NCBI GenBank assembly: GCA_030141605.1
Contig: JAQGDQ010000067.1
Coordinates: 186,001-250,000, forward strand
Direction: 5' to 3'
Origin: Tubiluchus corallicola
Taxonomy: Eukaryota; Priapulida; Priapulimorpha; Priapulimorphida; Tubiluchidae
DNA length: 64,000 bases
Positions 16,101-43,100 of this stretch are shown piece by piece. A program made the position numbers and the translations under genes. Below the pieces are notes generated by a model that was not told where the DNA came from, ran no database searches, and worked only from the letters and a program-made list of their open reading frames with translations. Each line of letters opens with the position of its first letter. Positions within the stretch are counted from its first letter, which is position 1.

Positions 16101-19100
16101 AGTATTGTAGTAAAATAAAAAGAGGTTCCACAAAATTGACGTATGCTATATGTAAAAAAAGCTGCTGAAATTGCACTAGAGAGACTGTACCATAATAAGC
16201 AAAAAGCAAAAAATTGGCCTACAACAGAGTCACAGCATCGATTGGGCTCATTAAATGCATTCAATGCACTATTTTTAAATCAGGTGTTGAAAAGAATGGA
16301 GGATGTACAAGTGATGCTTGAGAAAAGAAAAAAGGTTGTGCAACGAGTAGTCGAAAGACCCACTAGAATTGTGCAGCCTGTGGTGCTTGACAAACAACAA
16401 AAGAAAATATCTAGTGCTGCTAAGGTAAGCTTTAACTCGACATGTGTGACCGTGCATAGCAAAACAGTCCATAGTGCGCTAATTTAGTTATGGAGCTAGT
16501 AGGCTACCCGAGTCCTCATCGGATTAGTTTGTAAACTGCTGTTTTTTTGCAGAAATGCTGTAGAAAATGCATAAACAAAAGCCTTAAATTTTGCAAGCAT
16601 CTCTGTCATTTTTACCCAATAAGAATCGGGAGATCGCGGGTTATGTCATTTTTGGCCAATCAGAGGCATTAACGTCGCGCGACGTAGTCATCACGTGACG
16701 TCGAGTGCAAAGCAATCCCCAGCAATGCCAGTATCAACAAAGTCGAGACAGAAGTGGGAAGAACATTGAACTTGCATTTAAAAATGAACGGATTTACCTC
16801 TTCTTACATTGTTATTATGATTGTTATTAGTTTAGATTTTTTGTAGTAACAGTGATTTGCATTTCATATGTGAATTACAGGTTTTCAGCATTCTTTTCAG
16901 TAACATGTAGGCAAACACATGTACTTGAATACTTTCCTATAGTTTTCTCTAATATGTACGATTCAAGTCTTTGGCTGCTTTAGGCCCCATGTGTTTATCA
17001 ACACAAATACTGTATTATCAAAATTTTTGGTGGGGTCTTTGTGAGCAGAAAGACTTCTCAGAAGTGCTAGAATAAAGCTTGGGGTTATAAGACTCATGAA
17101 AATAAGACTCCTCAAGACAGTTACGTATGCCTTTCAAAATATTAGTAATAATGATAAATAAAAAGTGTTGCAGCAATAATAAAAATTGTTGTACAAAACC
17201 TTCTCTTCAATTTTTATCATTTTGTTGTGTATATTTTTTGTGATAATTTTTTCTATGAGTTAACTACTTAGTTTTCTCCCTTTTCAAAGACACATGTCTT
17301 TTCCGACTTGTAGTAATAATTATCACACCTGTAATTAGCATTTTTGGTGACTGATTTAGCTGAAATGGCACTAACATACAGAAATAGCGGGACTACATGA
17401 CAAACATGTGCAGTTACAGTATAGGTACTATAGCTACATACAAAAACCTGATGTCTGTATATGCGTGAAAAAGAAGTAACACATTTTCTACCTACATGAT
17501 GTTATACCTGGAATTATTTGTGGTGGGTATCTGAAATGACACTGAATTCTGAAAACTGCCTTTATACAGTACTAGTACCATCAAGGGAATGCTAACATTT
17601 TACTTGTCACTTATAATTATAAAGCTAAGCATAACATAGTCATAACAAGTATCTCAGCTGGTAAAAATGATACCTGTAATTACCAATGTTAATAATTTAC
17701 CTGTTTAAAACAAATTTTATAATATCAAAAGTGTTCAAGTCGATTTAATTTCTCATAAGTTTACAACTATCTAAACTGTGTACAAAAATCAAAAATAACT
17801 ACGTAATTGTGACGTTAAAGTTGGAAATGTTGGATTTGTATCACTTGTAATTACCCTGAGTTGTTAGTATACCTGGAAATGATAACCTGGAGCATGTTTA
17901 CAACAATGTACTTAAATAGCAGATTATTTATAAAATGGGCATAGTTATTCTCATATGTTTTTTTTTTCAGTTTTATTAGCAGTATAGACCAACTCTTTTA
18001 ATTGTCTCACCTGTAATTAATTTTCTTTACCTGGCAAACACAAACACTCCAAAGATACTCTGCTGATATATTTGTTTATAAGTTATACAAAAATTTTAAA
18101 AAGACGAAAACAAACATATTATTGGTAACATAAAAAAATTTTAAACTCTCGTGTGATAAAATTAATTACTATAACTTACCTTTAATTAAATTAACAAAGG
18201 TAGCACAGGTAAATAACAAAGGTACTCAAAATTCATCAAAAAGAGGTACAATTGATATACTTGCATACGAGCTGACAGAAAGGAAATTATACTTAATAGT
18301 ACTCTCCCAAACCCCATAGTAACCAATACCTTCCTCAGTTGCTATGTAAATTTACTGAAAACAGTAACACAAACTTTGCAAGCCATTTTCTCCCAATTTT
18401 AATTTTGAATTTTTCGCCATCCACTATAAATGCCAATATCTTTGTTCAGAAACAACCTAGAGAGCTGAAACTGGTACCAAAATGATCAGCATGAACAGTA
18501 GAATATGAACATGCATATAATTAAAAATTAAAAATTGATACCTAGGAAATGATACCTGGATGGTTTTGCTATGACATACATACCCCATTACTCATATATT
18601 ATACATTGCTTACTAAATATGATGATTGTTTAGATTATTATCAAATGATTATATTCTTGAGGCTAACAGATTGGCTGTGCTTGATTGTGCTGGCACCGAA
18701 ATTATTTTCAGTCTAAAAGAAAATAGAAAAGCATGTTTTTACAGAATTGTAGAGGTGCATTTTCTAGTTTCGATTTGACTTTAATGAATCAAGCAAAAGC
18801 TGCAGCCATTTTTAGAAGTGAAAGCAAGCTGTCAGCATACCGAAAAGATAATGGCTGGCAAATTGTTTTACGGCATATACGAACTCTAAAAAGTAGATTT
18901 AAGTAAGTGTCTTAATATAAACATTTTGAGAAATTAATACTTTGATTCTAAAGCATTTACACCCAAGAAATTATTTCTCTCATTTTTATCTTTAAAGTGG
19001 TCCTCTTCATTTCACATGAAAGCACCAAAGAGACATTGCAAGACACCTCGTCTTGATGATGTGCTGATCCTGGCTATTTGTATCATAGAGGAAGGGTGTG

Positions 19101-22100
19101 GTTAATATAGCTGTACCAGTTCAGTAGTTCACCCTAGAGGCATTGCCCTGACATAATTCAGTACCTGGTCTTGCCATTTCAGTAAGGCCTGCTTTGAATG
19201 TTGGATCTCCAGTTATAAGACTCCGATTTATAGCTTTCCTTTCTGTAACTACGCCAATATTCGAGCAAGCCTACATGAGCAACTTCATTTTTTGGCTTTT
19301 TAGTTCACATTTAGTAATGCCCAATGCTAACGCTTGTGTGTTGCAGACTACCTAGTGCTCAACTATGTTAAACTGACAGTACCTGTTTTTCAGTACAAAA
19401 ATTCAGCAGTTTGAGAGTTACCATAAACAGAAGAAGCAATGCTATTATAAACCTGACAGAGCAATTTATTTGGTATTTTTCAGCTAACACCGTTCCATAG
19501 CCAAGTATAGTCTGTAAAAAAGGAAACAGATATATTAAATAGCAAGCCTTACAACAAATTGATCAAATGTTAAACATTCAATACCACTAGTAAATAGGAA
19601 GAAAATAACATGACCAAAGTGACCAAACATAAAGAACCACATCAACAAAAGTGATCATCCAAGAGCAGTGAATGGAGAAAACTCTCACAACATGAAAAGC
19701 CATTTAAAAAGCCATACTGTAGTAGGAATTCCTAAAAAAAGAATGCATTCTTCAAATAATACAGACAAAATTAAGGCCTGCCTCCACCTTGATTTAAATT
19801 TAGTGTGAAATCACTTTCTTCTCTATATTTCTTCTTCTTCGTTATGGTATTATAAAGTGAGATGAAAAAATTGGATAGCACATGGTTTTTGTTGTATATT
19901 GGAATTTTTATTTATGTTGCAGATACCAGTAGATGCCATTCAAAGGACTGATAGCCCTGAACGAATTGGATTTACTAGTGACTGTGATGTTAATTTTGAC
20001 ATCACATTAGTTAATCCTGACCCAGATATGGTGCAAGCAAAAAGAAGGTAAAACACTGCTGTCAAGAAGAGGCACCTTATATAATCTTAAATTTCTCCAT
20101 TAAATGCTATTTTACTGATTTCCTTAGTACAGGAGCTCAATTAATCCCATTGATATTAACCATGACACTTTCAAGTGTTTCAGAATGTCGATATTGTACC
20201 CAAAATCATTGGTTCAATGGAGTCAGTAAAATAAAGTAACAAACAATAGATTTTAATACTGTATACAGGTTAATTTTGTGAACCAAATAGTTTATTTAAA
20301 TAAGATATTGTTTTTAATATCGTGTGATTAGACTTAAATCAGCAAGATCATAACTTTTGTGCATTGAAAATGAAAGCATCTTTTTCCTTAACAATACTTC
20401 TCAAAATGGCCATAAAACTAAAAATGGAAGAGACGGTAACATTTTTTTCTGCCCCAATGCTGACTAGTGCCATTAAAATAAATAAACATACTTTCGAGAA
20501 AGAAAGTTTAGAACGAAATAAATTTAGATGCCATTTATTCCTTTTAACACAGAATGAGAGAGAGAACAGCAGTTGTCTTTTAACATAAAACTGTTATGAA
20601 TAAAATTTAATTCTAATCTAATTTGTTTACTTGGGATTATGTGGAGTGCAATACAATGCTCTCCCCCTTTATGGAGAACTTTCCACACAAATTATACAGT
20701 TAAACAGCACATCAGTCTATGCTAACAAACTAGACTTAAGAAAGCAAGTCAACTAATTAACTTTCAAACAATATGTTGAGTACAATAAGTATGAACCTTT
20801 AAACCCGGTAAACAGGGTAAAGTATGAACACTAACTAATCCAAAGTTTTAAAAAACTCTCTTGCCTTTGTGGCGGCAGGCCATCCAGTGCACTTACAAAT
20901 CTTCTTTTGTTCATAAGAGTTAGTGTAGTGCTTCTCAGCAAAAATTTCTGAATCTACATCATCAGATGCAATGGCAGCTTCAGCAGTAAATAGACTCTGA
21001 GTAGAACTGTTAGGCATAAGAATTTGTGCTGCACGCACTTGCTCATCACGACCAAAAATGAGTTTCACAAGCTTCCCTAGCTTCTACTGACCTCTAGGAA
21101 GGTTTTCTTTCACTAACACAATTTTACGAACTTTAATATAATCAGTATACATGTTTCTAAGTTTCTTAACACATTGAAATTCATGCAAATGAATCAAATA
21201 TTCAGTCTTCCAGACAGACCAAAAGGTTTGTAATACATGATGTCTATGTTTCAAACGTGAAAGTAAGTGCTCAACATTACTTTGCTTTAAAACATTAAAA
21301 TCATCCTCGAATTTTGGCAAACAAGATAGTTGCAAGTCCTTGCACATAATAAAAAGTACTCCTCACTACCTAATAAAAAGTTATTAGGAGTAAAAGAAAA
21401 CCCGTCCCCAACATCTGAATACACAAACGTCAGGGGCCTATTATTCCACACTGCCTCAATTTCAGTAATGAAAGTTTTCGCAACAGATTTATACAGTGCC
21501 CACTTGACTAAACCTACCAAGCGGCATGTTCTACATTAAATATCCAACGTATGCCTTTGGAGGATACAAAATTCTGTACAAGCACATTATCAAAGGATTG
21601 ACACCACAATATGTGAAGAAAAACCTTTGAAATCTTGAAGTACTTAGGATTGTTCAGGTGTCAAGTCCTTTACCAACTCAAGGTGCAATGCTTATGTGAC
21701 AGCACATGTAAAAAGGCAAATATATTATTTTTGTTCATTACCAAAACCTATATCTTTGCAAAACAGACGCTTAAGATAGTCCACAGGAGTAATAAGAACT
21801 AGGAGCAATTGTAATATGCAAAAAAGGCAACGGAGGAATAGACGGACATTGGTAAAAATTAAACACCTATCCAAGACCTTTTTCACCTGACGTCTGCCCT
21901 CTGGAATCCAATAATTTTGGTGAGAAGAACCCAGAGTGTGCCTAACTCTTTGACGGAAGCTCTTTTCATGAAAGTCGTCAACAACTAAATTTGTGAAATA
22001 ATTCATTGTATCAGCTAAAACACCAGAGTTTTGCAAACGACACTACATATAATAAGATTCCCTCATCTTTGTAAGCATTTAACTGGGCAAAACGACCACT

Positions 22101-25100
22101 CTTTCTGTTTTTTATAGGTCAATAATATCCTCTTCAAATCCTATGGACTGTCTGTATGTACAATATGTACAAATCCATATGTACAAATGAAAGCCATAGC
22201 TTTAACGCACCTACCAACTCATCAGGTGACAGAATATCACTACAACATATAGACTTTTTATGAATACGCTGCAAAAAATGAGAAATCCAAGCCGTAACTC
22301 TAATAAGCTTAAACAAAGAATTGAATCTCTGAACACTAATCGAGTACTGTGTACTGCTCAACACAAGTATGCTAGATAAACCAGCTGTAGTCTTCTTTTC
22401 AGCCTGTACTGCTTCAAACATAGCCTTGACTAACCTTGATTCTGGAAAGCTGTCTCTTTCATCTTGAAGACATGGTGGACCATGTACTCAAATAGTTGAA
22501 GAAATCAGTTCTTCAGCCCGTACCCCCTGTGGTAAGAACAGCAGGGTTTCATTACCTGGACAGAAAGACCAGGTAGATGGATCATTTAACTCATGGATCT
22601 CAGAAACTCTATTACAAACAAATAGCTTCCACCGATGAGGGTCTCCTTTAATCCAAGACAATGCTACTTGAGAATAAGTCTAACAGTATATTTTGACCTG
22701 ATTAGAAAGATGAAGGATGATGTTGTGAACAAACTTAACTAAGAGTGCAGCAATTAAACTGCCAAGCAACTCTAATCTGGGTAATGCAACTTTCTTAAGA
22801 GATGCCACCCTAGCTTTTGCTATAACAAGTGATGATTCACTCCCTTATACCTAACGAGAGAACTCTTATATATTTTTGTTATATTTTATTGCTTACATTC
22901 CTTGGTTTTCCCATACATGATCGAAACCTATTAAGCTCAATACACCTCTCACATTACAGCACCATATATATATATATATATATATATAGTATACATACTA
23001 CAGCACCATAACCCTTTAGCGATGCATCACGAAATGCATGTAATTGAATATCTGCATCTACAAGATCTGACCGCTGATTTCCACTAAAGAAACGCCTCGG
23101 AATGTGCCAACTACTGAGTGTGCAAAGAAAGTTAATCAATTTTTCCAAGCGCACAAACTGTTCACCTGGTATGTTGACTTTCGATTCAATCCCCAACTGC
23201 CATAACTCTTGAAACAGACATTTTGCAAACTTTGTGTAAGGTCTAATAAGACAACTGGGATCGAATATCCGAGCAAAGCCACTAAGATCAACTTGCTTTG
23301 TAACATTATCCTGTGGCACACTCAAAGAACAGGCAAAGCAAAAACAGTCATCATCTACAGACAGTAAACCTAAAATTTTTGAAGTGTGTGTTTGCAACAC
23401 CAAACCTTCAGTTTTATTGACAAGATCTTTGAGCAAGACAGAATTAGATGTCCATTTACCAAGTACCATTTACCAGCCTTTAACGTGATACTGTGTACTT
23501 CATCCAACAGGTAACAAGCCTGAGATTCACTATCAGCTCCGGACAACCAATCATCAACATATAAATTTTATTGCAACTCCCGTACAACAACTGCAGATTG
23601 ATCAAACTTAGAAGAATGATGTTTGATGGTCGTATTAAGTAAAAATGGACTATAGCATACACCAAATGTTACAGTATTGGACCTAATTACAGCAGCTTTT
23701 ATCACCTATGTACCAAAGAAACTGGTGAATATCCTTATCAGCCATTAGTTGTCTAATTTGAAAAGTTGATATATAACTATCCCATTACTGTCATGGGGTA
23801 GCAAATGTAGCGATATTTCTAGAATTGACTATTAAATTAATGTCTTTTTGACGTGTGTAATTTTAGAGGCAGAAAATATAGGAAGATGGGTGAGCTATTA
23901 GGAAGGACTGAAGAAAGAAAAAGAGAAAAACTCAATCTTATTTAAACTATTTTATAAAGTGTGCATAATGCTTAGCAGAATGTATTACTTCACTGTGTAT
24001 ATTTAACTTGCATAATATGTTATTTTAATCTTTCAACAAAATTTAAACTCTGCAATGAATAAAAACAAAATCAAACTGACATGTGTCAAATAGTCCGTGT
24101 ATACAGAAACGCACGGCTCATATCAACTTTACGAAGAGGCTAATTAAAGGCCAATGCATATGAAGTCAGGTGATAAAGCCAGCATAAAACTATATAATGC
24201 AACCATGTAGGTAACCTACAGATAGACGTGACTGGATTATTTATGAGCAACAGAGAATATAAAAAATAAACTAAATGTATTTAGAGCAAAAGAAAAAGAT
24301 TTTGCAGGAGAAAACTGCAACGTTAATCAAAATATAAAAATGAAAAATAATTTCAAAAATCAAGAATTAAACTCACGGCCCATGCATCGTGACATCGAGG
24401 CCAATTAAAGGCCAATGCATATGAAGTCAGGTGATCAAGCCAGCATAAAACTATATAATGAAACCATGTAGGTAACCTACAGATAGACGTGCCTGGATTA
24501 TTTATGAGCAACAGAAAATATAAAATAAACTAAATGTGTTTAGAGCAAAAGGCAAAGATTTTGAAGGAGAAAACTGCAATGTGAATCGAAATATAAAAAT
24601 GAAAAATAATTACAAAAATCAAGAATTATACTTGACCGCCCATGCATCGTGGCATCATGGGTATAGGTGGCGCTTTTGAATTGTGTGCTGCAAGAATGAA
24701 ATCTTGTGCCTGCTCTATCATGTTGAACTGATAAGTGGGGTGGCAGAGCATTAAAGGTCTAATCACTGGTCTCTGGTTCAAGTTCCAGTTATTATTACTA
24801 TGAATCTTTTATTCAAAATACAATATACAAATAATAACACGTTTATACAAACACAGAAATATACAAAGCTTAAAATTCTACCTAGCCCTCTATTTGCAGG
24901 GCAATATTGACAATAGTTAGAGAGACGAATTTCATCATTGCTAAACAATAGCAGAAAATATGTGCTAAAGTTCCCAACTGGTTAACAATTTCTCAACATC
25001 TCGTTTCTTTAACTCATTAACTGCGATGGGTAATAATTGTCGTCAAATAAACAGCAACGGCTTATGAGCATTCTGGCATTCACAATCATAATCTAATTAA

Positions 25101-28100
25101 TGATATCGTTAATTGCCAGCTAATTTGAAAAAGTTGATACCATGAGTATCCTCTTTCTGTCATGGATACAGGTGGTGCTGTTGGACTGTGTGTTACAAAG
25201 ATGAAATCTTAGGTGCGCTCTGTCATGTTGAACTGGTAGTTCAGGTGGTAGAGCATGGAAGGTCTAATCCTAGGTCTCGGGTTCAAGTATCGACTAGTTC
25301 ACAGCTCATTATCCGCGACTAGCTTACAGCTCATTATCCGCAATGGGTAGTAATTGTTGTGACATAAATAGTAATGGCTTATGAACATTCACATTCCACT
25401 GTCATAATTTAATTAAAGATTTAGGCTGTGTTCAATAATTTTCTGTAACTAAGCATATAAACCTGCCCATAATGTTTATGTGCCCAGTAACAAAAGCAAA
25501 TGTCGCTGTTAGTGCTAGGACATTCGTCTACACTGATCACGTTCGTAATTTCTTTCATGGGCGCCGGCAGGCGGACGCACTGATGCACGTGCGTCCACAT
25601 AATTTCTTAAGAAATTTTTTATGGCTATATAATTTTTTAACGGTAAACCAAAAAGCACATCACCCTTGTTTGTTTGTGCAATCGCAGAGCAGTCAGCTGA
25701 TTTCCAGAGTGAAGTTATGTTTATGTGTATCACGTAGAGTCGATTCTCTTATCGATTTCCGTTGTCTAGACAGTTTTTAGCTAACTGTAACTGCACTTCT
25801 GAATTTAGGGGTTGGGCCCAAGGGGCCTGCCTACCCCCCCCCCCCCTTCACGTTTGTAGTGAAATTATGAGTCACGAGTTTGAGGTGACACTATGAGTTT
25901 TAAACTAGTAAACTTGCCTGAGGAAATAGCTTCTAGCAACCGCAAAATGGACTAAAACGCAGTAAAATTGCATTTAGCTGTATCCAGAGGGAAAAATTAG
26001 CACGCACGCAAACATATTAAATTTTGTATGAACAGTTGGTGGGCTGTAAACTTAACAGTCTCAAATCAGTTTTATATTTAACTATCCACATTTTGCTGGA
26101 TAGATAACCTTGACACTAAATAAATTAAGCTTATATAGGTAATGGGTCATCCGCATTTCAGTGTATTACGAACTTGTTTTTAAGATATATGACTACTACA
26201 ATAAAATACAATGACTATTGCCTAGGTAAACGTAGGTAAAATATATTTATTAAAGCAGAATTTTTCCCGTTTGAGGAAGTCTGTGTACCATAATTTACAT
26301 CTCATTTGACGCCTCCAAATTATGCTTAAATACAGGAAAATGTGTTGGTGGCATTTTCACCCGGACCCCCTAGCTGCTTGTGCGTCAAAATTTCTAACCT
26401 CTGACGGCGCCCATGATTTCGTTTGTGCTACATAACCTACGCAGAAACCAGCACAGTAAATTTAGAAAGACTGTATGTATTTAGATTTGATATGCGTTAA
26501 GGAGTGTGCTCTTGCACAGGAAGCCTTCAAGGCAGACTATTGATTGACGGAGCCATGTACACAGAAATTCAAACGAAAGCATGTCTACTGTGTGAGTCCG
26601 TGTAATGTTCAGTTTTAGCTTCATATGCGTTATTTCCTACGTTGTGCAGATTTTGCAGATGCATATCTGAATTTCCTGTTAGAGACATTTGACGCTTTGA
26701 TAAACATTGACTTTCCCTGGTCATTTGATTATAGTGCTGACTATTAACGATGTCTCAATTGATTTTAGCTTTCCGGGACGTGTGTAAGAACAATGCATTG
26801 AGTGTAATGCGTACTCAAGCATCCGTCAACTAATTGGCTTGAAACATATTGTACAGCTAGTATATTATCTTTGGAGCGATTTCTGTAAAGAACATACTAG
26901 CTCGAATTAATGCTGCAACCAACCTAAGTGTATACTAAAATTGTAACCACCTTACCGTTACGACTAGACTGCATTTAGCATAATCTGTCATTTTTATGGT
27001 AACCTTTACAATATTTGCGCTTCATTGGAGCACCATTGAGCGCTTGTTTGCTTGCACGCGATAACTGCGATAACCTACAGCCTCGTGCATACCATGTTGA
27101 TATATTTTCCTTCTGTTTGATATCGTGTCTCTCTCTTCCGCAAAACATGGTAGTTGCGGAAACTCGCAGAGTGTATTACTGCGATTGTTTATCATAGCTA
27201 CATGTTTAAACTGTTTTAATCATTATGGAATCGTCGCGTTTTATGATATTTACGGTGCACTTTAACGCGAGTCTGGCTCTCTGTGGCAGTTAGTGTGTTG
27301 TCACTAATGATAAAAAATATAAGTGTGGCGTTATTATTGCAATCAGACAGTCCTGGTTGTTACTGAATCGCGCTGACGAGGCTAAGGTCATCATGACGCA
27401 GGAATCGAAGTCTTCCACTCATCCCTTGACTGTTTTGTGCTTAATTTTCTGGGCATTGTTCAGGCTTATGTACAACTGTGTGTCAATAATAATGCATGCT
27501 TTACCACCATTATTAACGTCTGTGAAAGGAGGCCTTCCACAGTTGACGCAGCAACCTAAAGTTGCCGAAGCGTCACTCCGACCAGAAGTCAGGTTTGTAT
27601 GACATGTAGCCTATTCTTGATTTTGTGTGTGTGTGTGTGTGCGTGCGTGCGCGGGTGTGTGTGCATGCATGTGTTCATGCATATTCGTGTGTGTGTGCGT
27701 GTGCACTTGCGTGCGCATGCATGTGTGCATATTTGTGTGTGTGTGTGCGTGCGTGCGTGTGTGTGTGTTCTCTATTGTCTTTTGATTTCATTATTAATTC
27801 GATTATTTTTAGTTTGTTTTTATCCTTATTGCCGGATCTTAAATTTCTGGATGGCATGTATGTTTTAATCAGTTCTACAAGAAAGTATCTTTACCCATTT
27901 ACATTTAAATGGACTTGACCATGCAGAGTTTTGAGTTTGATTCTAGGTTGTACCAGAAGCCAGTGCAGCTCCGTAATGTTTGAGTTATGTGACCCCCTTT
28001 GCGCAAATGCACGATCACTATTTACACAGTTTTTATTTTTTTTGTAGTTTGTTTACAGTTTTGTAAAACGTTTAACAGCAATACACTGCAGTAGTCTAGC

Positions 28101-31100
28101 GTCGAAGTTACAATAATGTCTCAGTGCTGTGATGTTTTTTATATGCTGAATTCAGTGTCGAATACAGGCCATTGCATTCAAGATGCTCTACATACTGGTT
28201 TAAAGCTGCTATACCTATTGTTTTGTTTTTTTCAAAAATATCTTGATTACATGGCACTTCCAAGTGTCTGGAAATTAACTTGTTAGCAATGTTTCACAGT
28301 TTCATAATTGGTGCGATTAAATCATCAATGCAGCCTTTCAGCAGTGTCGTTGGTGTTAGATCTAATACGCAAGATTTCGTTCCAGACTACATTATGATGG
28401 CTTTATTCTGTTCTTGAGATACTTTTGAAACTGACAAAAATTTGATTTGTTGATTCCACTGTTCATCAACGATAAACCAAGCTCTTCAGGCTAATTACTA
28501 TGCTGGGTATGCTAAGTTAGAATGTCACAATGCCCCACTTAGCAGTTTTAACTGTTTATTGTTTATAAGCACTCACCCAATAAGAAAATAGTATCAGTGG
28601 TGTTGTACAAAATAAATGAATGACACATAAATTAATGTGAGAAAAATCACATTAAATCACCTAAAATCTAAAAAAAATTATTTTGATCTATCATAAACAT
28701 TACAAAATCACAAGACAAAATCACCAATAAAAAATCAAATTATCTTTATAGTAAAAAGTATTACTCTTTAAAAGTTGAATTAATAAATTCATATTTTTAG
28801 AGAACATCAGTTACCACATAGACTTATAGTATTAAATTATAAAAATAGCCTGTACCAGGATGTGAGTGCCACCTGGTGATGAAACTAATCAGTTTTTTGC
28901 ATTCTAATCAGTTTATCTGATTGTCTATTGAGCATACTTTTTCTGGGAAATGCTCTACCTCCTTGTGTGCCAGTTTGGGCACTAGTATAGGCAATTTCTA
29001 CTATGTGCAAATTCGTCCAAGCTTCTTTTGAAGATGCTGATTGTAGTGCTGTTGATAACATCTCCAGGTAGTGAGTTTCACAGGTTTATCTCTGCGTTTC
29101 AGAAACTAAACTTATATCCAGTCTGAACTGCTTTTTATATATTCTGTACTTGTGGCCTCTTGTTATTGATGGATGGCAATCAAAGAACATTGCAGGACCC
29201 AAATCCGAAACCCCTGTGAACATTTTGTACATCTCGATTAGGCATCCGCTAGTACGTCTGTATAACTTGAGTTCCTGTAGTTTGTCCTCATATGTACTGC
29301 TGTTTATCCCAGAGACCATATTCATTGATCTCTCTTGGACTTTTTCTAGAGCTAAAATATCATTTTACGTAATGTGGGCTCCAAATTTTGCTTGCATATT
29401 CGATATGTGGTCTCACTAGGACTTTATATATTGGTATGATGATATCTCTATCCCTACTAACAATTGTTCGACAGATAGCTCCAAGTATCTGATTTGTCTT
29501 GGCAACTTTATCATTGATATGCATGCAGAATTTGAGTTGGTCGTCCACAGCAACATACAAAGTCTTGCTCAGAAGTATGCAACTTTAGAGACTACATTTC
29601 TCAAAGAGATTGGTCTATAGTTGCTGGTTACAGTTCTGGTGCCTTTCTGGTGTATAGGTGTAATGATTGGGCTCCCAATCTTCTGTATGTTTGCATCTAT
29701 CAATGATCTATGGTAGTTAGTGGCTCATTAACATACGGTGCAGCTTTAACTAGTATAGCCGGATGTAATACACATCAATTCCTATCGCAGAGTTGATATT
29801 TTATGTTTTGATGATGTGATGAATGTGTTCCTGCATATTATCAATGTCTTGTAGTGGCATGTCAGTTATTGGATCGATTGACGGTAACATTGACGCATCT
29901 TTTCTAGTAAATGAGGTGTCGAACTCCTCATTCAGGATTTCAGCCATGTATTACGGTCCATCACTAGTTCCCCATTTTGAGCTTTTATTGGTCCTGCTTG
30001 TGGTTTGCTATTGATATCGAAATTTGCATACTTCCAGAAGGATTTCACATCTGGTCTTAGCTAGCTTTAATTCATAGTTTCTTTTTGTTAATCGTATTGT
30101 TTTTGCATGTAATTAGAACGTGCATTATACGAAGGTGCTCCTCTGTGTCTAAAGTAAGCTTGTAGTTGTTATACGCCTTCTTTTTGATGAGAAGTGAATC
30201 AAGCATTTGTAGTTAAACTAAACAGGTTTTTTCTGGTTTGTGCTTTTAATCAATGGAACATTTGTTTTAAGTAGCTCATTATAACAATTGATTAGGATCT
30301 GCCAGCAGGATATTGCTGATTTATCTGAAAATTTATACTCCCATGGTACAACAGCTAATGTAGAATTGATTGCTGGATAGTTTGCATGATGAAACGGATA
30401 CTTTTTCTCAGCCACATCAGTTTACCTCGCACTTGTGTCATTCGATGACACAGTGATCAAATGTTGCAAAACTTTCTTGGACTTCAAGATTCTCTGCTAT
30501 GCAATTGTCATTAGCTAGCACAAGATCAAGTCCAGCATTTATAAAATTAGGTGTTGTAACAAATTGCTGTAAGAGAGCATTGTTTAAGACATGGAAAAAT
30601 TGGTTCAATTTAACTTCGTCAGTTAATAATGTCCAAACAGCATTTAAAGTCTCCACACAGTATAGTATTACATAAACTTCACGAATTTGTTTTAATTAGT
30701 TCAAACATTGAAAGATCATTGTTAGTAGTACTTCCTCAACTTGTAGACAGCCCTTGACCAAAATTAAAACTCCACCTCCACATCCTTAGTGCGATCACGT
30801 CTTAATGATTTATTTCCTTTAAATTCAAAAAGAGTTTGAATGGCTATAGCTGAGCCCCAAGTTTCCGTGAACAACGATTACAATTTCGATCATGTGTTAT
30901 CTTCACTAACCTATTTTTTGTGTTTGGTAGATTGTGTAACAAAACTTCTGTTCTGATGGCTGAAGGAGTAAGCTTGAAAGTTGATCATAGTGTTTTTTCC
31001 AAAGCCTCTTAAAATAGTGTCAACCTCAAACTCTGTAAAGTAATTTTACAAAAATATAACATGTCATTTTTTCAAATCATGTTTTTCAGGCACGTGATGA

Positions 31101-34100
31101 GAGAATTGATTGAGACTGAGCGTTTATACGTCACTGAATTGCAGGCAGTTGTAGAGGTAATTAGAAGTTGTTTATGTAATACTGGTTGTAAAATTCATTA
31201 GTTGTCTATAGCCCTGTTTGCACTAGGCAAAAAATACTCTACCCATCGTAGATTTTTGAGATCTAATATAAACGGACACATAGCCAAAAAGACCACTATG
31301 GGTACTGGACTTTCCATGACTACCTCCCATATGTGGTCTCAGAAGACCTGCATTACTGAGGTTTTTATAGATTCAGATGTTTAATGAAACCATCGTCTTG
31401 CGGTAAAACATACCGGACTCTGTGGCAAAAGTGTACTGCTATATCTAGCCAATTCATGCTTAGGAGAAGAGGAATGGCCCTGACATAAATAGACCAAAAG
31501 TGGCGTTTGTACATAAAGAAGGCAAAATGATTATAGCAGCCTTTCTAAACGCAGGCCCGTTGCCATTGCCTCGTACGACAGCAAGGTCGTTGAAAACCTT
31601 ACTGAAAATCATTTAAGAAATTGACGTAATGATACAACAAAATTGATAGAGTACAAGGATTTAAACCAGGCCATACTACTAACTGAAACATTGTAAGTCT
31701 TGTACCAGTTATTTAAAGAAATGGATTTAGGGACATCTAGACATTTGTATAGTTTGTGATTTCCAAAAAGCGTTTGATACTGAGTAGATAAATGGACTAA
31801 AGGGAATGACTAAGTTGAAACTATCTGATATCAAAGGCAACTTGCTAAGTGTAATTTGTAGTTTTCTAAAAATAGAAGTGTGATGACATGTCTGAAAAAT
31901 ATCGTTGCAGCATGTATAACCCCCAAGACTCAGTGCTGTCCCTTTGTTATTTATATTTAATACAGCTAACATGTTAGATGAAAAAGTTTTGATGAAAAAA
32001 ACTTAACCAAGTTTAAATACTCAGATGATGGTATATATACAGTAAGTTTATACTAAAGGCATTAGCACAGCCAAGAATAACCTAGTTAAAAGAGAATTAG
32101 CATTACATGAAGCAATGCCAAATGTGCGGGTTAATTGTTTACACCCTATGAAAGTCCACTTAGCAACTATCAGGTCTTTCTTAATTAATAAAAAATAGTG
32201 CGATGAAATATGAGAAGCGAGTTTTTGACAAATCTTTCATCTGAGACATTCATTTTTAATGAGCTGGATGTAGCAAAATATCTTAAGTACACAGTGGGGG
32301 AGATTTTATCAGTGTAGCAATATCACAAATTTGCCACATTGATAGGCCTATACCACAGCTAAAACACCTATATATACTGCTGTCACAAAATGAAGGCCAG
32401 ATCCATTTCAGTACAAAACTGAGGAAACTATACCCTGACTTCAATCATTGTAGCAATGCTACATTGCAAGCATCAGGGCATATTATATGTCATTGTAATC
32501 TGGCAAATGCTCAATTTACAGCTAATTTAAGGCAGGTTCTGCCTACAAATAACTTACATAAAATTTATCTCAAAAGGGATGAAGCTGTATGTAAGGCATA
32601 TGTAGGTATTAAAGGAATTGTACGTAAGAAGTTACTGGAAGCTATCTTACTTAGAGTGCAAAGCACCGGCGTTCCACGATAAGATTATCATGATAATAAT
32701 TAGCATAAAGCCAATTTATTCATGAAAATATATTTTAGTACATGTTTATTTTTATAGTGTGTTGTGAATATAGTAAGAGACAAGTATATTCTGATTTAAC
32801 TTCTGTTTATGTAGGTATTGTGCATGAATTAGGTATTGTGACATCATTGTAAACAGTTATTTAGTTGTAATGGAACTGCAAATATATGAGAAACAATGCA
32901 TTTATTATTTCAATAAACAGATTTAAAACAAAAAATCTTGCTCTCTCTCCTCTCTCTCTCCCTCTCTTTCTCTCTCTCCCTCCCTCCCTCTCTCTTTCTC
33001 TCTCTCTCCCCCTCCTCCCTCCCTCTCACCTCCCTCCCTCCCTTTCCTTTCCCTTTCCTTCTCGCTTTCCCTTTCCCTCCCCTCTCCCCCTCCTTCCCTC
33101 CCTTCATCCATCCACCCATCTGCCAGCCTACATTCGTCACTGTTGATAGGAACTGCAGGTTTATTTTATTTCATACATTCATACAAAAGCAAAAGCAAAA
33201 TTTACTATTTTCGCTTATTTACAGGGTTATATAAAGCAACTTTGTGATCCAGAAATGCGCACTTATGTTCCAGAACTTTTGGTGGACAAAGCAAATACGT
33301 TATTTGGAAACTTAGAGGATTTATATGAATTCCATGGCAAGTAAGGCTCACATGTTTTAATTATATAACAATCAGACAGAGATAGGGTTTAATAGTACTC
33401 ATATTAATAAAATGCCACTATGTATAGTGTCGTGAGGTTGTCGTTAAACGAAAACAAGAAGAGGACTGTTGGCAATAGCTAGTTGCATAATTGTAGATGA
33501 CATTTTTTCCACCAAGTATGAAGCTCTTCCAGAAAATTTTTTGAATTTATGCAAGTTGATTCAGAGATGGGCTGCGAAATTCATATTCAGACATATTTTT
33601 ATCTATTCATAGAAAAACTGAGAAACTATCTCTGTCCTGTCACAAATATAAAAGATTTCCATATAAAGGAATGCTACTTGGCTTGAATTTAATTAATAAA
33701 ATATCGTGCAACGATGAAAATATTTGTGATAAAAATTTGTGATGAAGAACCTGTAATGTTGTCTGTTTTGAAATTCTTCTCAGTTTCTCAGTGGGGAGTG
33801 GTCACAAATTGCTAAAAATTGGCGTTGGTTAAGAAACATTAAGTGCTCAAGCACTACCTTTCCCTACTCAAATGTTCAGAATTCAAAAACTAATTAATGA
33901 AAAATGTTCTAGCGGTTTTCTAAAAATACAAATATTTACCTACGCACACACACACACACACAACTGTTATTGAAGTAAGAGTGTAAATATACATAGCAAT
34001 AGTTAAGCTTATGTAAGCAAGGCCTGCACCCTAATGGTGAAAGCTCCGTAACATATTTTTTGGTTTATATGTTTGCGCATGTGCTTTATTGATAACAATA

Positions 34101-37100
34101 TTCGCAGATTAGGTGTTTAAAGTTTTACTATTCTTGCTAAATAAATTTTACTGATTAGAACATCGTTTTTGTTATAATGAAAATGCCTTTGCATCCACCA
34201 ATTAAGCAGAAGAGTTCTTGGGACAGCTTGTATTTAACTTCTTTATCATTTCATTCCCTGCAAACTCTTGTTAGATATGGTTGGCTGTATATCACTTTAT
34301 TGTTGTTGTTATTGATACAATTTATGACACTACAAGCTGGTATGCAGGGCCAAACAGCAAAGTTTGCCTGTTGTGTTATAGATGGGCTGAAAATATTATC
34401 ATTTAAGATGCAGAGGTGCTGTAGCCATTCAATAAAATATATGTGGCTACTATATGCAGGTGTATATACATCCTCCTCGTATCAGGTAATTATCAGTTTT
34501 CCCAGCAGTAACCCTGTTTTATTAACCAGGCTCAACATTGCTTAACTTGAGCTGCAAAGTCTACAGTGCTTCTCTAGCTGCTTCGGCAAAATGGAAGATG
34601 CACACAGCAGCCCGAAACACTTGTTTCAACAAAAAGACTTTGTTTTTCGAACGTTTGTTTTGCAAAATGCTGTTTCTTTTTTATTTTCTTCTGCTGCACA
34701 TTGATGGCAAATCAGACTCTGTTTTTGTTACATATGTTCTGTTACCATGTCCCATTTGGCTTTTGCTATTAACAAAAACATTGAATGAAACTTTACACCA
34801 GGGTTTAAGCTTCTGAAAGTTTTTTAATTCATTGTAATGTTTAACTTTGTTTTTCAGCATCTTTTTGAAGGACTTAGAAGAATGTATAAATACACCTGCT
34901 TTAGTGGGAAAATGTTTTGTTGAAAGGGTAAGTTTTATCGTAGCATATGTTTTCATTCCTGCAAGTACAGATACTTTCTAAACAAACTTCGAAACTTTAA
35001 TGTTGGCTTTTTTTAAATTTAGTGAAGACCATCTCTGAGAAACTTGAAGTTATGTGCATTGTGAACAACAAAATGTTAATTTATTTGAGTGCTAACTTTG
35101 AATTTTTAAAGAGTCACTAACATTTGTAAACATATAACATAACATGAATTTATTTGTTGTCTCTTTTTCTTTTTGTGAAATTTGACATGCTTGCACTTTT
35201 TTCTTGCACTAAAAGATTATTATTGCCATAGAAATACATCTGTAACTGTAAACACGTGTGTTCATAAATAAAACTTGAAAATGTTTTTGTACAAAAATTT
35301 AATTCACTGTAATATAAATTATTATTGTATTTTTAATTGCAGAAAGAAGATTTTTATGCAAAATATAGTCTCTATTGCCAGAATAAACCACATTCTGAAT
35401 CACTGAGAAGACAGTGTGGGGATAGTAATCCTTTCTTTAAGGTGAGCAACATTATAATAAAAAACATAACTGTGATTCTTTTCCTCTCAGGAATGTTTTT
35501 ATTGAAAGATAAATGTCAGTATGTTGTTAAAGATTTATAGTTTAACTGGACACCTGGATAGAGACATATTACTGGTTTGTGGGTGGCCCACTTGTATTTT
35601 TCTAATTTCGACGTCTCAAACATTTCAGAGGTGCCAAAACAGGCTAGGACATAAATTACCTCTTGGTGCATATCTTCTCAAGCCTGTGCAGCGAATTACT
35701 AAGTATCAGCTCTTACTAAAGGTAATAGTGCTTGCGAACATACATCATATGTATACATATATATATATATATATTAGACCATGGAATGTCTCCCTAAGGT
35801 ATGATAAAGTTATATAATTTATTATAATTGTACATAAGCTATTAAATTTTAAAACTTATACCTGTAGACTGCAAATACAACATCAGTAAATGCATCAAGA
35901 AATATTTGTTTTATACCAAAAGGACAATCCTCAGCTCACAGCAAGGCCATAGATGGACAATCTCCAGGTCTGTAGCAGGCCTAAGTGTTGTTTAAAAGAA
36001 GTGTTCTGCTACGTGCTTGGTTATGATGCCATTGATTAATTATGCTTACAGTTCAATAAGCTCAACTTTTTGTTGTTGGTTCTATCAATTCATGTAGAAT
36101 GTTTTAAAATTTGACTGATAACTAAAATCTGGTGACAATTTCTTCTAATAAAAACATTGGGTTCATTAATATTCAGTTTAACCATTAAGGTTACCAATTC
36201 AAATAAATAAATATCTGATTTGAAGAAGACTGTTTTAAATTGACTTAACTGCATTTGTAATTTGTGATTTCTGCATTGATCATTGAATTTTGATGAAGTA
36301 AGTGATTAAGTATGATAGATTTTTTTAGTTATTAATGTCTTAATTTCTTCACTGCCATGTATGTGTGCAAGCTGTATACTACAGATTTTATTACTTTTGG
36401 GTACTGTTGTTTATTGTGAATTTAAACACTCTCATGCCCCAAAAAGATTTACATACATTCACTAAAAGAAAAACACATACATTTTGGCACATGATGAATT
36501 CGTTTAGAATTTATAATGCAGAACATAATATTACTATATAAACAACAAAATAAAGTTTCTGCTGCTATGAAAAAATAAAGAAATAAATGTGGTTACTTTT
36601 AGTACACTGAAAATGGCTGCCAAGCAAGATGGCTGCAAAAATATATTACTAGCTACGTTAGTACCTTCTATTTTATAGCAGTTACAATGTATACACAGTT
36701 GAAAAGCTAACTCTTGGATACACAAAACTCATTCATTCATTCATTGTCCATTCGTTCATTAGGCTTATACACTGTATACATATATATATATGTGTGTGTG
36801 TATGTGTATGTAGAAAATCAGAATCCACATGATCTATAAGAAACTGCCCGGGTGGGATTTAGATAAGAAAATCATGTACACATACCGAAATAGGCTACTA
36901 AGAAATTTGACTTATCTAAGCCTAAAATAAAAATATATTGGTCCTGATAACATTTTTAAATATAAATATGTGTAATTATAAATATTAAATATAATATTTA
37001 ATATTATATTATTATTATTATTATTATTATTAAATATTAAATATAAATATATACAAATATAAATATAAATATATAAACACATCTTATAAATGTGTGCAAA

Positions 37101-40100
37101 AGCTCAAAAAATGCATAGACCTTTATTCAAGAACAATAATTTCTTTACAAATTATTTTATTTGTAAGATTTATTTGTGTGGGTATGCAACAAAACCCCGA
37201 GATTATCAAATTTTTAACTTTTATTGTTCCTAAAATCTCTAAAATATATAAAATGGCAATATTTCACCTGACACAGAACTTATAGTCGAAGCCGCACACA
37301 AGTGTGGTGTTTTTACTATATCGCCCAGGAAACAAGATCACACTTCATTTATTAATGTTCTGCGAATTCTTCTCGGCCCTGCTGCAGCTGTTCTAGTGAC
37401 AAAATACAGAGCACCAGAATTTGTGCAGAGCATAAGACAGTAATGTACATCAAGTAGACTCGGGTAGTACAAATGTAGGATGCAATAGCAAGTCATTGAG
37501 GCAGTGAAGGGGTTAATACGAAATCAGTATTTCACCTGTATGTTTACACGTTTGAAAGGTATGAAGTATGAAGAATGTTGAAGAAGAACATTTACAAGTA
37601 ACAAATAGCTTGTTTTGTACATAAAAAATACTTAACTGTGTGCTTGCAAACCAAAAGCATCCATAAGTCAACATAGTTAAAACTGCGTTATGATGCTTCA
37701 AAGTAGACTGCACCAAAATTTTGGTCTAATGTTAATTTTTCATTTTATATAAAAACAAGCGCTAATATATGTCCAAAAAATAATAAAAATTTAATTTTAT
37801 AACCCGTGCCCATTTCTCTGCCTAGAAACTAGTACTGCAATTGCAAAAAACTTGTATTTTCAAACTCCGGCAGTAGCTCGTGGAAGCATTCATTTTGCTT
37901 CAGATTTTTTCTGTTGTCAAACCCAAAGCTTCGTCAAGAAGAACTGGATTTAAACATAACTTCAATGTGCTCTTACAAAGTCCATAGCAACCACACTTTT
38001 GTACGGTTCCTAAGTGTTTTGTGGAGACGCTACAAAAAAAAACACTGGCTGACGTTAACAGCAATTTCCTCAAGATTTATGTTTTTCACTGCATAAACTA
38101 CACCTCAACTTCAACGTGGATTATCTGAGCTTAGAAATAACATAGAGCAATGAGCTTGGTATCAAAATGATCCTCGTGAAATGGAGATTCGGGGTATGTG
38201 AATAACTAGAAAACATTAATCACTGACTATGGACCATTTTGCTATGCAGTCACACATTGTAAGTTCATTCATATTTACTTACAGGAGATGCTAAAATATA
38301 CTGATAATGAAGTAGGTCATGCAGAAATAGAAGAGGCATTGGATACGATGTTAGAAGTTTTAAGATATCTTAATGATGTTATGCACCAAGCAGCTATAAC
38401 AGGATTTTTGGTACGTAATTTATAGTTAGCTGTTATATTAATGAAAAAATCCCACAATTAAGAAATATTATGTTTCATACTACCACTCTTAAGAATCTTC
38501 GGCTGAAAGGAAAAAAGAAAAAAGACCACTTGAAATTACTAATATTACTTTTAGATAGTTTTTTAATATTATTTACTCATTAAGATATCTCACTAAAAAT
38601 GATCACATGGGAAAAACACAGTAGCACAGCAAGTAAAAAACGCAGAACTATAAAATCATTGGCCACAATCATGTAATATGTTTCTTTTGTATCTCACTCT
38701 ACATTCTGTGACTATAGTCAGTGATTTTGTTTTTATGGTGCATTTTTAATTTGCTGTACTTCTGTGTTTTCCTATGTCCTTTTTAGTGTGTTCTATTGTG
38801 CATTAAAAATGCCTTTTTTTCAACCTCCCTCTACATTGTGATGGTTCTATCCGTTACAAAGCCATTGCATATCAGCACTCCATAGTAGCTATAAGTAGCT
38901 GGTGTGGAATGGCCTGGTGTGGTCATTTGGCAGACAGATGGGCATATTTACCACTTATGCACCTGTTCAGCAATAATCAGCATGAGGAATGCAGAAAGAG
39001 ATTCTGGCTAGTTCTCACTTTAATTTTACATTTTTGAGTCAATTTCTCCACAACAACATCTGCAATATGGTTTGACTGATCCACATTTGATCCCTGCACC
39101 TCTTTGCCGCCTCCAGAACATTATGCTAACATTATAAAAAACTTTCACAAAAAAATTAGTACTAGTTATTTTGTGATCATTTTTTCACCTCAAGATAAAC
39201 TATAGCCATAGTTATTAGTGTCTCTTGTTTGTTTAATAGTTAAATGCTTTCCTCAACTGTGAGATTCTTTTCATTAACTCATTCATGACTTTGAATATTT
39301 GGGTGGTAGATCATCAAATAAAACAGCCCATAGTGGCCTAACTGTATGAGATACAAACCTATATATTTTCTCAAAGAGAATTAAATTTTCTTTCTAGCAC
39401 TCTAATCTTAATGTTTAGATTTTCTCTGCTCCCCAGTAATCAACAGTATAATTCAAAAAATTTGCAAAAATTTCACAGAATTTTCATTTCAAAGTCTTCT
39501 AGATTCCAAGTTATAGCCTGTGTCTAAAACTGTTCAATGTAAAAACTTTTGTGCATTCATTTCTGCATGAACTTTTGCAAAGAAGTTTAGTTTAGTTTAT
39601 TCCATTTGCCATGATAAAATAATACATAAATATGGTGAAAATACAAAATGCCAAATTAAAAGAAAACAAGCATGTGAATAATAAAGTTAATTAATAGATT
39701 ATTAGGACTTCCAAAAAGAAAAGTTGTAACGGTCAGGCCGAATATGGCGAACAGAAAGGAAAGTGTAGGTGCAAGAATAAAAGGTGGTTAATGGGAGGAA
39801 AAGGAGTATGAAAAGTGAAAGGATATGAAGATGTAATATGAAAGTGAAAAAAAAAATAAAAATAAAAAATATATTTACAGGAGGATGACATAAGAATGTA
39901 ATAAATGTAAATAAATCAGCTAGGCAAACACAATCACAAATGGTGAGAGGAATCAGATTATGTCCACCCACCTACAATTTTTCTTTTATTTCTTCCTGTT
40001 GTGGAGTATAGTCCATTCTTGTTCTTCTTTAAGTGTGATATGAAACATTACAGATTATAAATGTTCGGATTATGGTCCATGATAAAGAGTTTAAGGCTTT

Positions 40101-43100
40101 TTATATTTATAAATACTATGTTCTGATTTTATATGATTAGGGAGCTAGTTCCAAATTGATGGCCCAGCAATGGAAATGAAATGCTTAGCAACATTCATGC
40201 AGATGCATGGAAGAAAGTATTGATTAAATCATGTATTATGAAATCTTGCATCCAGTTTGATAGGATTTTTGAAGAATTTGAGTAATAATTCGCTATTTGT
40301 TTTATACATAAAAGTCGCAATATTATGAAACGCTATGTTATCAGACAAGATATTACATTATTTAAAGAAAGAGTGAATTTATTTAATCCAAAATATAAAC
40401 AAAGAAATTTTCTTTGAAGACGACTTAAAGGGGTAAGATATGTCATGTATGTAGCTCCCCAAAGGGAACTAACATAATTTAAATAAGGATAGATTAAAGA
40501 ATAACAAAGAGTAAGTAAATGTGATTTGGACAATTTGTATTTAATATGGAACATAATATTTTTCGCTATTTTTAGACTAATTATTTTTCTATGAAAGTTC
40601 CAGTCAAGATGTTCATGCAGAACTACACTTAAAAATCTGGCAAACTGAACATATTCTATAGGAAGTCCATCAATATAAAGACTAGAATTCAAAGGAATCG
40701 GTTTATTTTTAGAGCAAAATAGAATGTACTTTGTTTTAGTGGGATTAAGAGATAATTTGTTCGCTCTAAACCAGTTAGAAATGTCTTTTAAAATGTTATT
40801 TATGTTAGTAATGCTGAAGTGATTGAAATTGAAAGAGTGTGGTGTCATCAGCGAACTGAATAATATTTGGACAAGTGAAAATGTTTTTTATATGATAAAA
40901 AATAAATAATCAAAAATAAAAGTGGTCCTAAAGCAGAACTCTGAGGAACACCACAATTTACACAGAGCTCGGTTCAAGTATATTTATTACATCTGACACA
41001 CTGCTTATGATTGTCAAGATTGTAGGAAAGCATTTGTTATTTTCTCTTTCATGGCATCCTGGCTTCCTACTGTCTTGCTTGATTTGTAGATGATTGTTTT
41101 AGTTCACAAAAATTGGTAGTACTCAAAATATAACGATAAAAGAAAGTTTAATCATTTATAAAACACAAAATTATAAAAATAAAGATGAAAGCAATGACAC
41201 AATCATGTTCTCCACTTGTTTTCTACTTAACAGATTGCCTACTACTATGTTTCTACGCGTCATAAAATAGTTCCTCGCAAGTCACTTGCGACAAAGATAG
41301 CTACTTACCCAGTCAAGTATTCAAATCACTCTAAATCTAAGTTTGTACATTTGACAGCTGTTCAAACGCGCTAAGATATTACGAAATATGTACAGCAGAG
41401 GAATGCAAACTGTGGCCCACGGGCCCGCGAGGAGGTTTGTCAACCTAATGAAAATGCGGCCCGTGCGATAAATTGAGTGTATTAAGCTGAAGTCCACGCC
41501 ACGATCGCAACAATAGTGCGGGTAGTTTTTTTCACTAGCTCGGGTGGCATTAACCCTTTACAAAACGATTGTCACTGAATGTCACTGTCGGACATGACGA
41601 AATTCCACGTTGCTCACTTGGACCACAAAAAAGCTGTAATCACAGAACACAACAAACTATCACTGAACCTGCCACTGAAAATCCAAAAATTAAAATCTGG
41701 CAAAAGCACTGGCATTTATTATATCCCAAATGAAATGATTAAGTAGCAATAGATATACTTGCCAGGCCCTTAACTAAGCTGATGAATTTAATACTGGAAA
41801 AAGGCAAATATCCAGAGAACTAAGGGCATTTTAAGTCCCATATTTAAACGCGGAACACTAGATGATCCTAAGATTACCATGGAATCTCAGTAGCCTCATG
41901 TCTTGGCAAAGTTTTTGATTCAACCATTAATGAACGACTAGCAAAATTTCTTGAAAAATCTGGTATTGTAAAATAGTTTTCTTGCATGTAATAGTGTAGT
42001 AGCAATGATGTGCGCAGATCGGGTGCAAAAAGATCGTTATTAGGTCCTACTGTACTTGGGTTCTTGACCAAACTGCATGTGGCCCGCAGGAATTGCGGGA
42101 AAGTTTAATGTGGCCCGGCTAGTCAGGTAATTTGCACACCCCTGGTGTACAGGAATGCAACACTTTCTGCTGATGAGTCTGCTGTGCGCTGGCTATTGAA
42201 TCTGTGAAGATGTAAAATAGCTCAATCTTTTAGGCATTCTCTGTAAAGGTGATCACTTTTAATATTTGATTCGTGTGCTTTTGCAGGGGTCATTGAAGGA
42301 ACTGGGTCGCCTTCTCACACAAGGACCAGTGAACATGTGGAGAGAAAACAAAAAAGACAGAATCAAGGACCTTCGGTTTAAGCCGATGATGCGCCATCTT
42401 TTCTTGTATGAACGTGCAATTTTGTTCTGCAAGAAGAGGGATGATACACGGGGAGCAGAGAAAATTTCATACAGCTATAAATTTCAGAAAGAGGTATAGA
42501 TGAGTAGCAACAATAAGTATTTTAAGTCACAAACTCAAAACAAAGTAGAAATTCTGCTTTTATGGGAATGTAAATATTTAATAATTTTCTTTAGCATTAA
42601 CTTGATGCATGACTTTTTCTGACAATTTATTATCAAGTAGACTTCAAATTTTTGGTTTTAGAAAGTAGTCGCTTCTCTCGGCTACTTGTTAAAGTTTGAC
42701 CATCTTAGAATATCTTGTACAACCTAAGCATCACCACAGTAATTACTGACTAATTACATTATTTATGTACAGTGTGCTCTTGCCTATAAATTCGTCTCTG
42801 TATTAAGTGGAAATTCTCCTCTTACGTAACTTTAAACATATTGTATGACTTCCATATAAAAGCAAAACAAGTAAATTTTGATGCAGCAGTTTCCGTCTTT
42901 GAAGTAATGTAAGTGTAATCAAAACATGCCGGCTGCAAGAAAAATTTGACATTACTCAGCAGGTTTATTCCCTGAATTTAACAGTTTAACTGGTGCCTGA
43001 GAAGCTAATGAAAAAATTATAGCCAGACTACAAGCAGAAGATCCAGTTATGTGCATGCCACATTGTATTTGAGCTTGTTTCTGCCACAAATTTAGTTTAC

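Follow-up and report, generated by a model that had tools for sequence, protein, structure and literature searches.

A candidate internal first exon ahead of the DH domain of a DBS/MCF2L-type RhoGEF gene in Tubiluchus corallicola

Introduction

Does a gene for a DBS/MCF2L-type RhoGEF in Tubiluchus corallicola begin a second time, inside the intron that precedes its DH domain? The locus that raises this question lies in a 64-kb stretch of the genome (C562:186001-250000, hereafter the window), whose + strand carries a gene with Sec14, spectrin-like, DH, PH and SH3 domains in that order; our genome searches covered the 343.5-Mb assembly. A preliminary description of the window had noted an ATG exon at 27393-27592, in an 11-kb intron of this gene, and had proposed that it opens a short, membrane-linked isoform. 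Judging from its sequence, we give this exon a probability of roughly 0.5 of being an alternative first exon. That it would lead to an active, membrane-anchored isoform of the DBS-type gene, a further step taken by analogy, we consider doubtful.

Results

The candidate exon fits the DH-starting exon in phase. It opens with the ATG at 27393, which has an A at position -3, and remains open for 66 codons up to ...GAAGTCAG/GTTTGT, with 27592 as its last base and a phase-2 end. The DH exon starts at 31090 with G+CAC, and therefore only a phase-2 exon fits in front of it. The normal occupant of this place is likely exon 19923-20047 (...DMVQAKR/AG), the sole candidate before DH that passed our thresholds with an acceptor in phase 0 and a donor in phase 2. 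Its AG and the G of 31090 form an Arg codon that is followed by HVMRELIETERLY, as in DBS (RRHVM...). The candidate exon ends in the same phase and with the same AG, and so gives the same Arg codon (AG/G). The AG/GTTTGT donor, the phase and the shared Arg codon had all been put forward in the preliminary description, and the sequence agrees with it on each. The donor scored 5.9, compared with 4.8-11.4 for the best donors beside 16 exons.

A strongly hydrophobic stretch had also been expected within the 66 codons, and it is there: the maximum 19-residue Kyte-Doolittle mean of the open reading frame (ORF) is 1.91. The run, LTVLCLIFWALFRLMYNCVSIIMHALPPLL, extends over about residues 12-41 and contains two Cys and, in the middle, an Arg. 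On the octanol scale it is membrane-like, with a sum of up to 12.1 over 19 residues, but the Arg sits mid-run. Among 82 chance ORFs of intron composition, 11% were at least as hydrophobic by the Kyte-Doolittle measure, and the T-richness of the DNA accounts in part for the hydrophobicity of the candidate. The sequence directly 3′ of the candidate donor (27620-27770) is a long (TG)n tract with CG and CA interruptions; such TG repeats can affect splicing. Further donors, with scores of 9.0 and 6.0, occur in 27599-27857 and are reached from an ATG at 27599 through this repeat.

The DNA upstream of the candidate had been described as CpG-richer, and the region in fact holds the highest CpG count of the window, at 26801-27600, with 28 CpG per 600 bp and an observed/expected ratio (o/e) of 1.04-1.19 (windows 26801-27400 and 27001-27600). 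Over the whole window the o/e is 0.48, a low value that suggests methylation of the gene body. In the flank that reaches from 500 bp upstream of the candidate start to 100 bp past it we counted 26 CpG (o/e 1.07), and the same flank at internal exons contained 2-14 CpG, with an o/e of 0.13-0.76, in all 16 examined. As a further reference we took six coding starts of the Ras family, chosen from 150 Ras matches in the same genome; they had 12-24 CpG and an o/e of 0.63-1.52, and four of them lay above the top internal exon. When the stretch 26430-27630 was searched against its own genome it found only itself, in a search that ignores simple repeats and highly frequent words. We had considered whether this stretch is a transposon, and rejected the idea for want of a second copy in that search.

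The other CpG-rich stretches that we tested, three in number, all proved to be wholly or partly repeat. A dispersed repeat at 41422-41680 carries the entire CpG peak at 41 kb (14 CpG in 259 bp), a low-copy repeat at 16499-17143 makes up most of its CpG-rich stretch (17 CpG in 645 bp), and another dispersed repeat, at 25554-26420 (27 CpG in 867 bp), covers part of the broad CpG shoulder at 25.0-26.4 kb. Two more CpG peaks, at 5.0-6.0 kb and 54.2-54.9 kb, are present in the window, outside the three stretches tested for repeats.

Within the CpG peak, a TATA-box-like and an initiator-like motif precede the ATG, and the leader that would run from A 27345 to the ATG is 48 nt long and contains no ATG. 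The strict pair (TATAAR + TCAGNY) has one match on the + strand of the window and three on the - strand. As background we used 20 stretches of 10 kb from the same genome, at hand-chosen round coordinates on contigs that a previous search had returned; here the strict pair occurred nine times in 400 kb-strands, or about 0.7% per 300 bp. We regard the pair as moderate evidence for a promoter. The internal promoter suggested in the preliminary description thus finds partial support, in features of the sequence: the CpG peak in once-only DNA and, in addition, the TATA/initiator-like pair.

By itself the ORF is weak evidence, being only mildly unusual, and the strength of the candidate is that the ORF, the once-only CpG peak and the TATA/initiator pair coincide.

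Discussion

We propose that the 11-kb intron separating the linker exon from the first DH exon contains a second promoter. Its transcripts would begin near 27345, inside a CpG-rich stretch that would be unmethylated, and their translation at the ATG at 27393; splicing would join this first exon to the DH exon at 31090. The MCF2L identity and the domain content claimed in the preliminary description hold for the predicted product, which would carry DH-PH-SH3 behind some 66 new residues and would be without Sec14 and the spectrin repeats. Lacking these, the short product would be freed, in this animal too, from Sec14/PH autoinhibition; in mammalian MCF2L, losing Sec14 and the spectrin repeats is reported to release activity (PMC9823006). 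The hydrophobic segment, at about residues 12-41, may hold the product at a membrane near Rho GTPases. Taken as a whole, the proposal is that an internal promoter specific to this lineage, lying in an intron that transposons and a dispersed repeat have enlarged, would give rise to a DBS isoform that is constitutively active and anchored to a membrane by its N-terminus; we hold this to be rather unlikely. If it were true, a DBS-type guanine nucleotide exchange factor (GEF) outside the well-studied models would shed its Sec14/spectrin brake by an internal start, like Kalirin, and there would be one more case of a first exon in intronic DNA for which no relatives were detected. The proposal makes a clear prediction: one junction and one start site.

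Several observations weigh against a first exon at this site, and most of them fit a chance ORF with a mediocre donor, lying in a CpG-rich intron stretch that is an enhancer or other DNA, an explanation that is quite possible though short of probable. We defined comparable ORFs as those with an ATG, at least 66 codons and a phase-2 donor scoring at least 5.9. The real 11-kb intron holds one of them; 1000 second-order Markov copies of the intron had a mean of 0.081, with at least one in 8.0% of copies, and 200 further shuffled copies had a mean of 0.04. The two strands of the 200 kb of background yielded 25 start/phase cases, of which eight were in phase 2; this amounts to 0.22 phase-2 ORFs per intron-length of real DNA; some of these are probably real exons. 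Codon usage hardly discriminates, with a likelihood ratio near 1: the candidate scored -0.02, between the 20 segments of this gene (0.07 +/- 0.13, leave-one-out; 848 codons, segment ends approximate) and 121 background ORFs (-0.13 +/- 0.13), of which 16.5% reached the score of the candidate. The donor has a T at +3, found in none of the 16 best-scoring donors beside exons, but the scoring itself disfavours T. The 66 residues gave no usable match in the Pfam, PDB, viral-contig and prokaryote collections, which include no related animals; the blank result in the viral and prokaryote sets is uninformative about conservation. A match to MFS_2 (E 0.021) fell below the cut-off and was taken as a hydrophobicity match. 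The genome itself held no paralogue of the 66 residues; besides the candidate there was one match (E 2.03, 36% identity), which we took as noise.

The promoter-like features are open to similar objections. In 1900 overlapping background windows, 73 had at least 23 CpG with an o/e of at least 1 and 14 had at least 28 CpG; CpG-dense windows are therefore not rare in this genome, and the CpG signal is suggestive and not specific. Two of the six Ras-type starts have an o/e under that of the top internal exon. The segment 25001-25553, which has no repeat match, is still CpG-rich (15 CpG in 553 bp, o/e 0.75) and slightly weakens the argument from the repeat at 25 kb, without shifting our odds for a first exon. 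The TATA and initiator motifs were picked after the site had been viewed. When the motifs were relaxed, each looser version had four matches on the + strand of the window, against 16 or 37 in the background, and none of the six Ras starts has the pair at the 27-bp spacing. What a chance ORF leaves to coincidence is its position, on the top CpG peak of the window, in once-only DNA, behind the sole strict TATA/initiator pair of the + strand and an ATG-free leader. Among the background ORFs of the same kind with a measurable flank, two of 23 had at least 23 CpG and an o/e of at least 1, both on one stretch.

The same donor could instead close an optional cassette exon, 27464-27592, that would lengthen the full-length protein by 43 residues where the linker meets DH. 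Such an exon is open and symmetric, its acceptor score of 3.4 is mid-range for the gene, and it is the sole cassette candidate in the intron at the thresholds used. However, at least one such exon appeared in 14.7% of 150 shuffled introns, the CpG peak and the TATA/initiator pair would be left unexplained, and the hydrophobic stretch would land in a linker, so that we judge the cassette improbable. The CpG stretch might also be the promoter of something else: a gene nested in the intron, an RNA that is antisense or noncoding, or an MCF2L transcript that begins with another, noncoding first exon. A CpG peak and core-promoter motifs would indicate a promoter but not what is transcribed from it. 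Short ORFs on the - strand, with a donor at 27093, would suit this view, but they have only 18 and 34 codons; the intron has no tRNA or Rfam match at the gathering score, and a six-frame Pfam search of 20-35 kb returned only BEL/Pao families above the cut-off. We rate a promoter of this sort as very unlikely. Below the cut-off, that search gave a weak CHS4 match near 24.2 kb and a weak RhoGEF match at 31.1 kb. A known nested gene or noncoding RNA was also sought in the intron, and none was found by the Pfam, Rfam and tRNA scans.

A first exon at 27393-27592 would belong to a kind that is already known, as short RhoGEF isoforms made from internal starts and alternative promoters of human MCF2L have been described. 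The Duet promoter of Kalrn lies inside an intron and yields isoforms with the second GEF domain only and no spectrin region, and similar variants of UNC-73 exist in C. elegans (PMC3541206). The likeness would lie in the proposed intron-internal promoter and in the dropping of the spectrin region, and in our locus the predicted coding first exon can, by its sequence, join the DH-starting exon in frame, phase 2 to phase 2. Kalirin, however, is a related but different gene, its second GEF domain is the one concerned, and the start in our locus is a candidate; a hydrophobic new N-terminus is not mentioned in the excerpted parts of that report (PMC3541206). Human MCF2L, a member of the same gene family, uses alternative promoters whose choice alters the protein, but the front peptides precede Sec14, and a start directly before DH is not described in the portion of the report drawn on here (PMC10885033). 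Among the papers listed by our literature search on MCF2L alternative promoters and on MCF2L with sponge or Dbl-family evolution, none showed an internal start in an invertebrate MCF2L, which is not proof of absence.

For membrane placement, the closest comparisons come from two other RhoGEFs. TGAT, a short Trio isoform, is constitutively active, and both this activity and its association with membranes depend on the final 15 residues (PMC5992656). Its membrane tail is C-terminal and is made by alternative splicing, unlike the N-terminal segment proposed here. In p63RhoGEF (ARHGEF25), a plasma-membrane RhoGEF, anchoring is by palmitoylation and belongs to the main product, not to a predicted transmembrane-like segment of an extra exon. 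Placing the p63RhoGEF catalytic domain at the plasma membrane, and not at the Golgi, suffices for RhoA activation (PMC4592971). Because membrane placement matters in one case and suffices for RhoA activation in the other, the proposed mechanism of release and membrane placement is reasonable by analogy. The broader idea, that the isoform would follow the logic of TGAT and Kalirin Duet while having reached it independently through a new hydrophobic N-terminal exon, strikes us as an unlikely one.

Gene layout and neighbouring sequence

The gene was assigned to the DBS/MCF2L type on several grounds. Spectrin_5 (PF23289), the DBS-like spectrin-like domain of Pfam, matched in the window with E 2.9e-12, plus a continuation, and in a Pfam scan of the genome this gene alone exceeded the Spectrin_5 cut-off. 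The top PDB matches of the DH-PH part were the DBS structures 1lb1, 1rj2 and 1kz7 (E 3.6e-19); the Pfam RhoGEF model on its own stayed below its cut-off because the DH exons are split. For Sec14 and SH3 we searched with a human MCF2L sequence, and the upstream Sec14 assignment rests on this query: its Sec14 part was matched by four stretches that lie 5′ of the window (E 1e-6 to 4e-6 or better). More matches to the query follow inside the window, from 7.1 kb onward, and the SH3 match at 48.2 kb was obtained both with it and among the PDB matches. The coordinates are collected in Table 1.

Table 1. Features of the locus, numbered from the first base of the window.
Feature	Position	Strand	Basis
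Spectrin-like domain exon, DBS-type (Pfam Spectrin_5)	15809..16015	+	Pfam, splice scores
Final spectrin-like exon, donor phase 0	16284..16424	+	Pfam, splice scores
Likely normal pre-DH exon, encoding the linker that follows the spectrin-like domain; acceptor phase 0, donor phase 2	19923..20047	+	Splice score, frame
BEL/Pao-type retrotransposon remnant, same MCF2L intron	21000..23469	-	DUF5641, Peptidase_A17 (Pfam)
Dispersed repeat, part of the CpG shoulder left of the peak	25554..26420	.	Genome search
Once-only CpG-rich stretch, proposed unmethylated internal promoter region	26430..27630	.	CpG scan, genome search
TATA-box-like TATAAG	27318..27323	+	Motif match
Initiator-like TCAGAC, proposed start A 27345, 27 bp from the T of TATA	27343..27348	+	Motif match; sole strict pair on this strand of the window
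Putative first exon of the short isoform, coding, 66 codons + AG, phase 2	27393..27592	+	Sequence, splice scoring
Rival cassette exon, 129 nt, phase 2-2, acceptor score 3.4, donor of the candidate	27464..27592	+	Splice scoring
DH-starting exon, phase 2 in (HVMRELIETERLYVTELQAVVE)	31090..31156	+	Sequence, DH match
Rest of DH exons, overall	33225..38410	+	PDB matches; ends are best-scoring sites
Individual later DH exons, approximate	33225-33340, 34858-34927, 35343-35441, 35.6-35.72 kb, 38285-38410	+	
PH exons, approximate	42287-42493 and 43765-43936 (span 42287..43936)	+	Ends are best-scoring sites
SH3 exon	48161..48380	+	PDB matches, MCF2L query, splice scores

Repeats are found in the same intron and elsewhere in the window. 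The dispersed repeat at 25554-26420 is about 865 bp long and mostly 78-88% identical among the 40 of 1691 first-look candidates that were scored, the window copy included; its spread leads us to infer a non-autonomous mobile element. In the BEL/Pao remnant, the DUF5641 and Peptidase_A17 matches are in different frames. What looks by eye like a decayed reverse transcriptase remnant of the non-long-terminal-repeat type lies on the - strand at 28900-30900, where Pfam found none, and a local direct duplication, 90% identical, links 24239-24396 and 24500-24656. The short CpG-rich dispersed repeat at 41422-41680 is about 260 bp long and 79-87% identical among the 40 of 1504 candidates scored, and the low-copy repeat at 16499-17143, with 17 first-look candidates, stands shortly 3′ of the spectrin exon. 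Lastly, the Ras matches in the genome included equal-scoring Ras-domain fragments on contigs C1796, C2016, C2136, C2140 and C2209, all with the same 359-bp gap between two pieces, which suggests that the Ras-like sequence on these five contigs has recently multiplied or is mobile.

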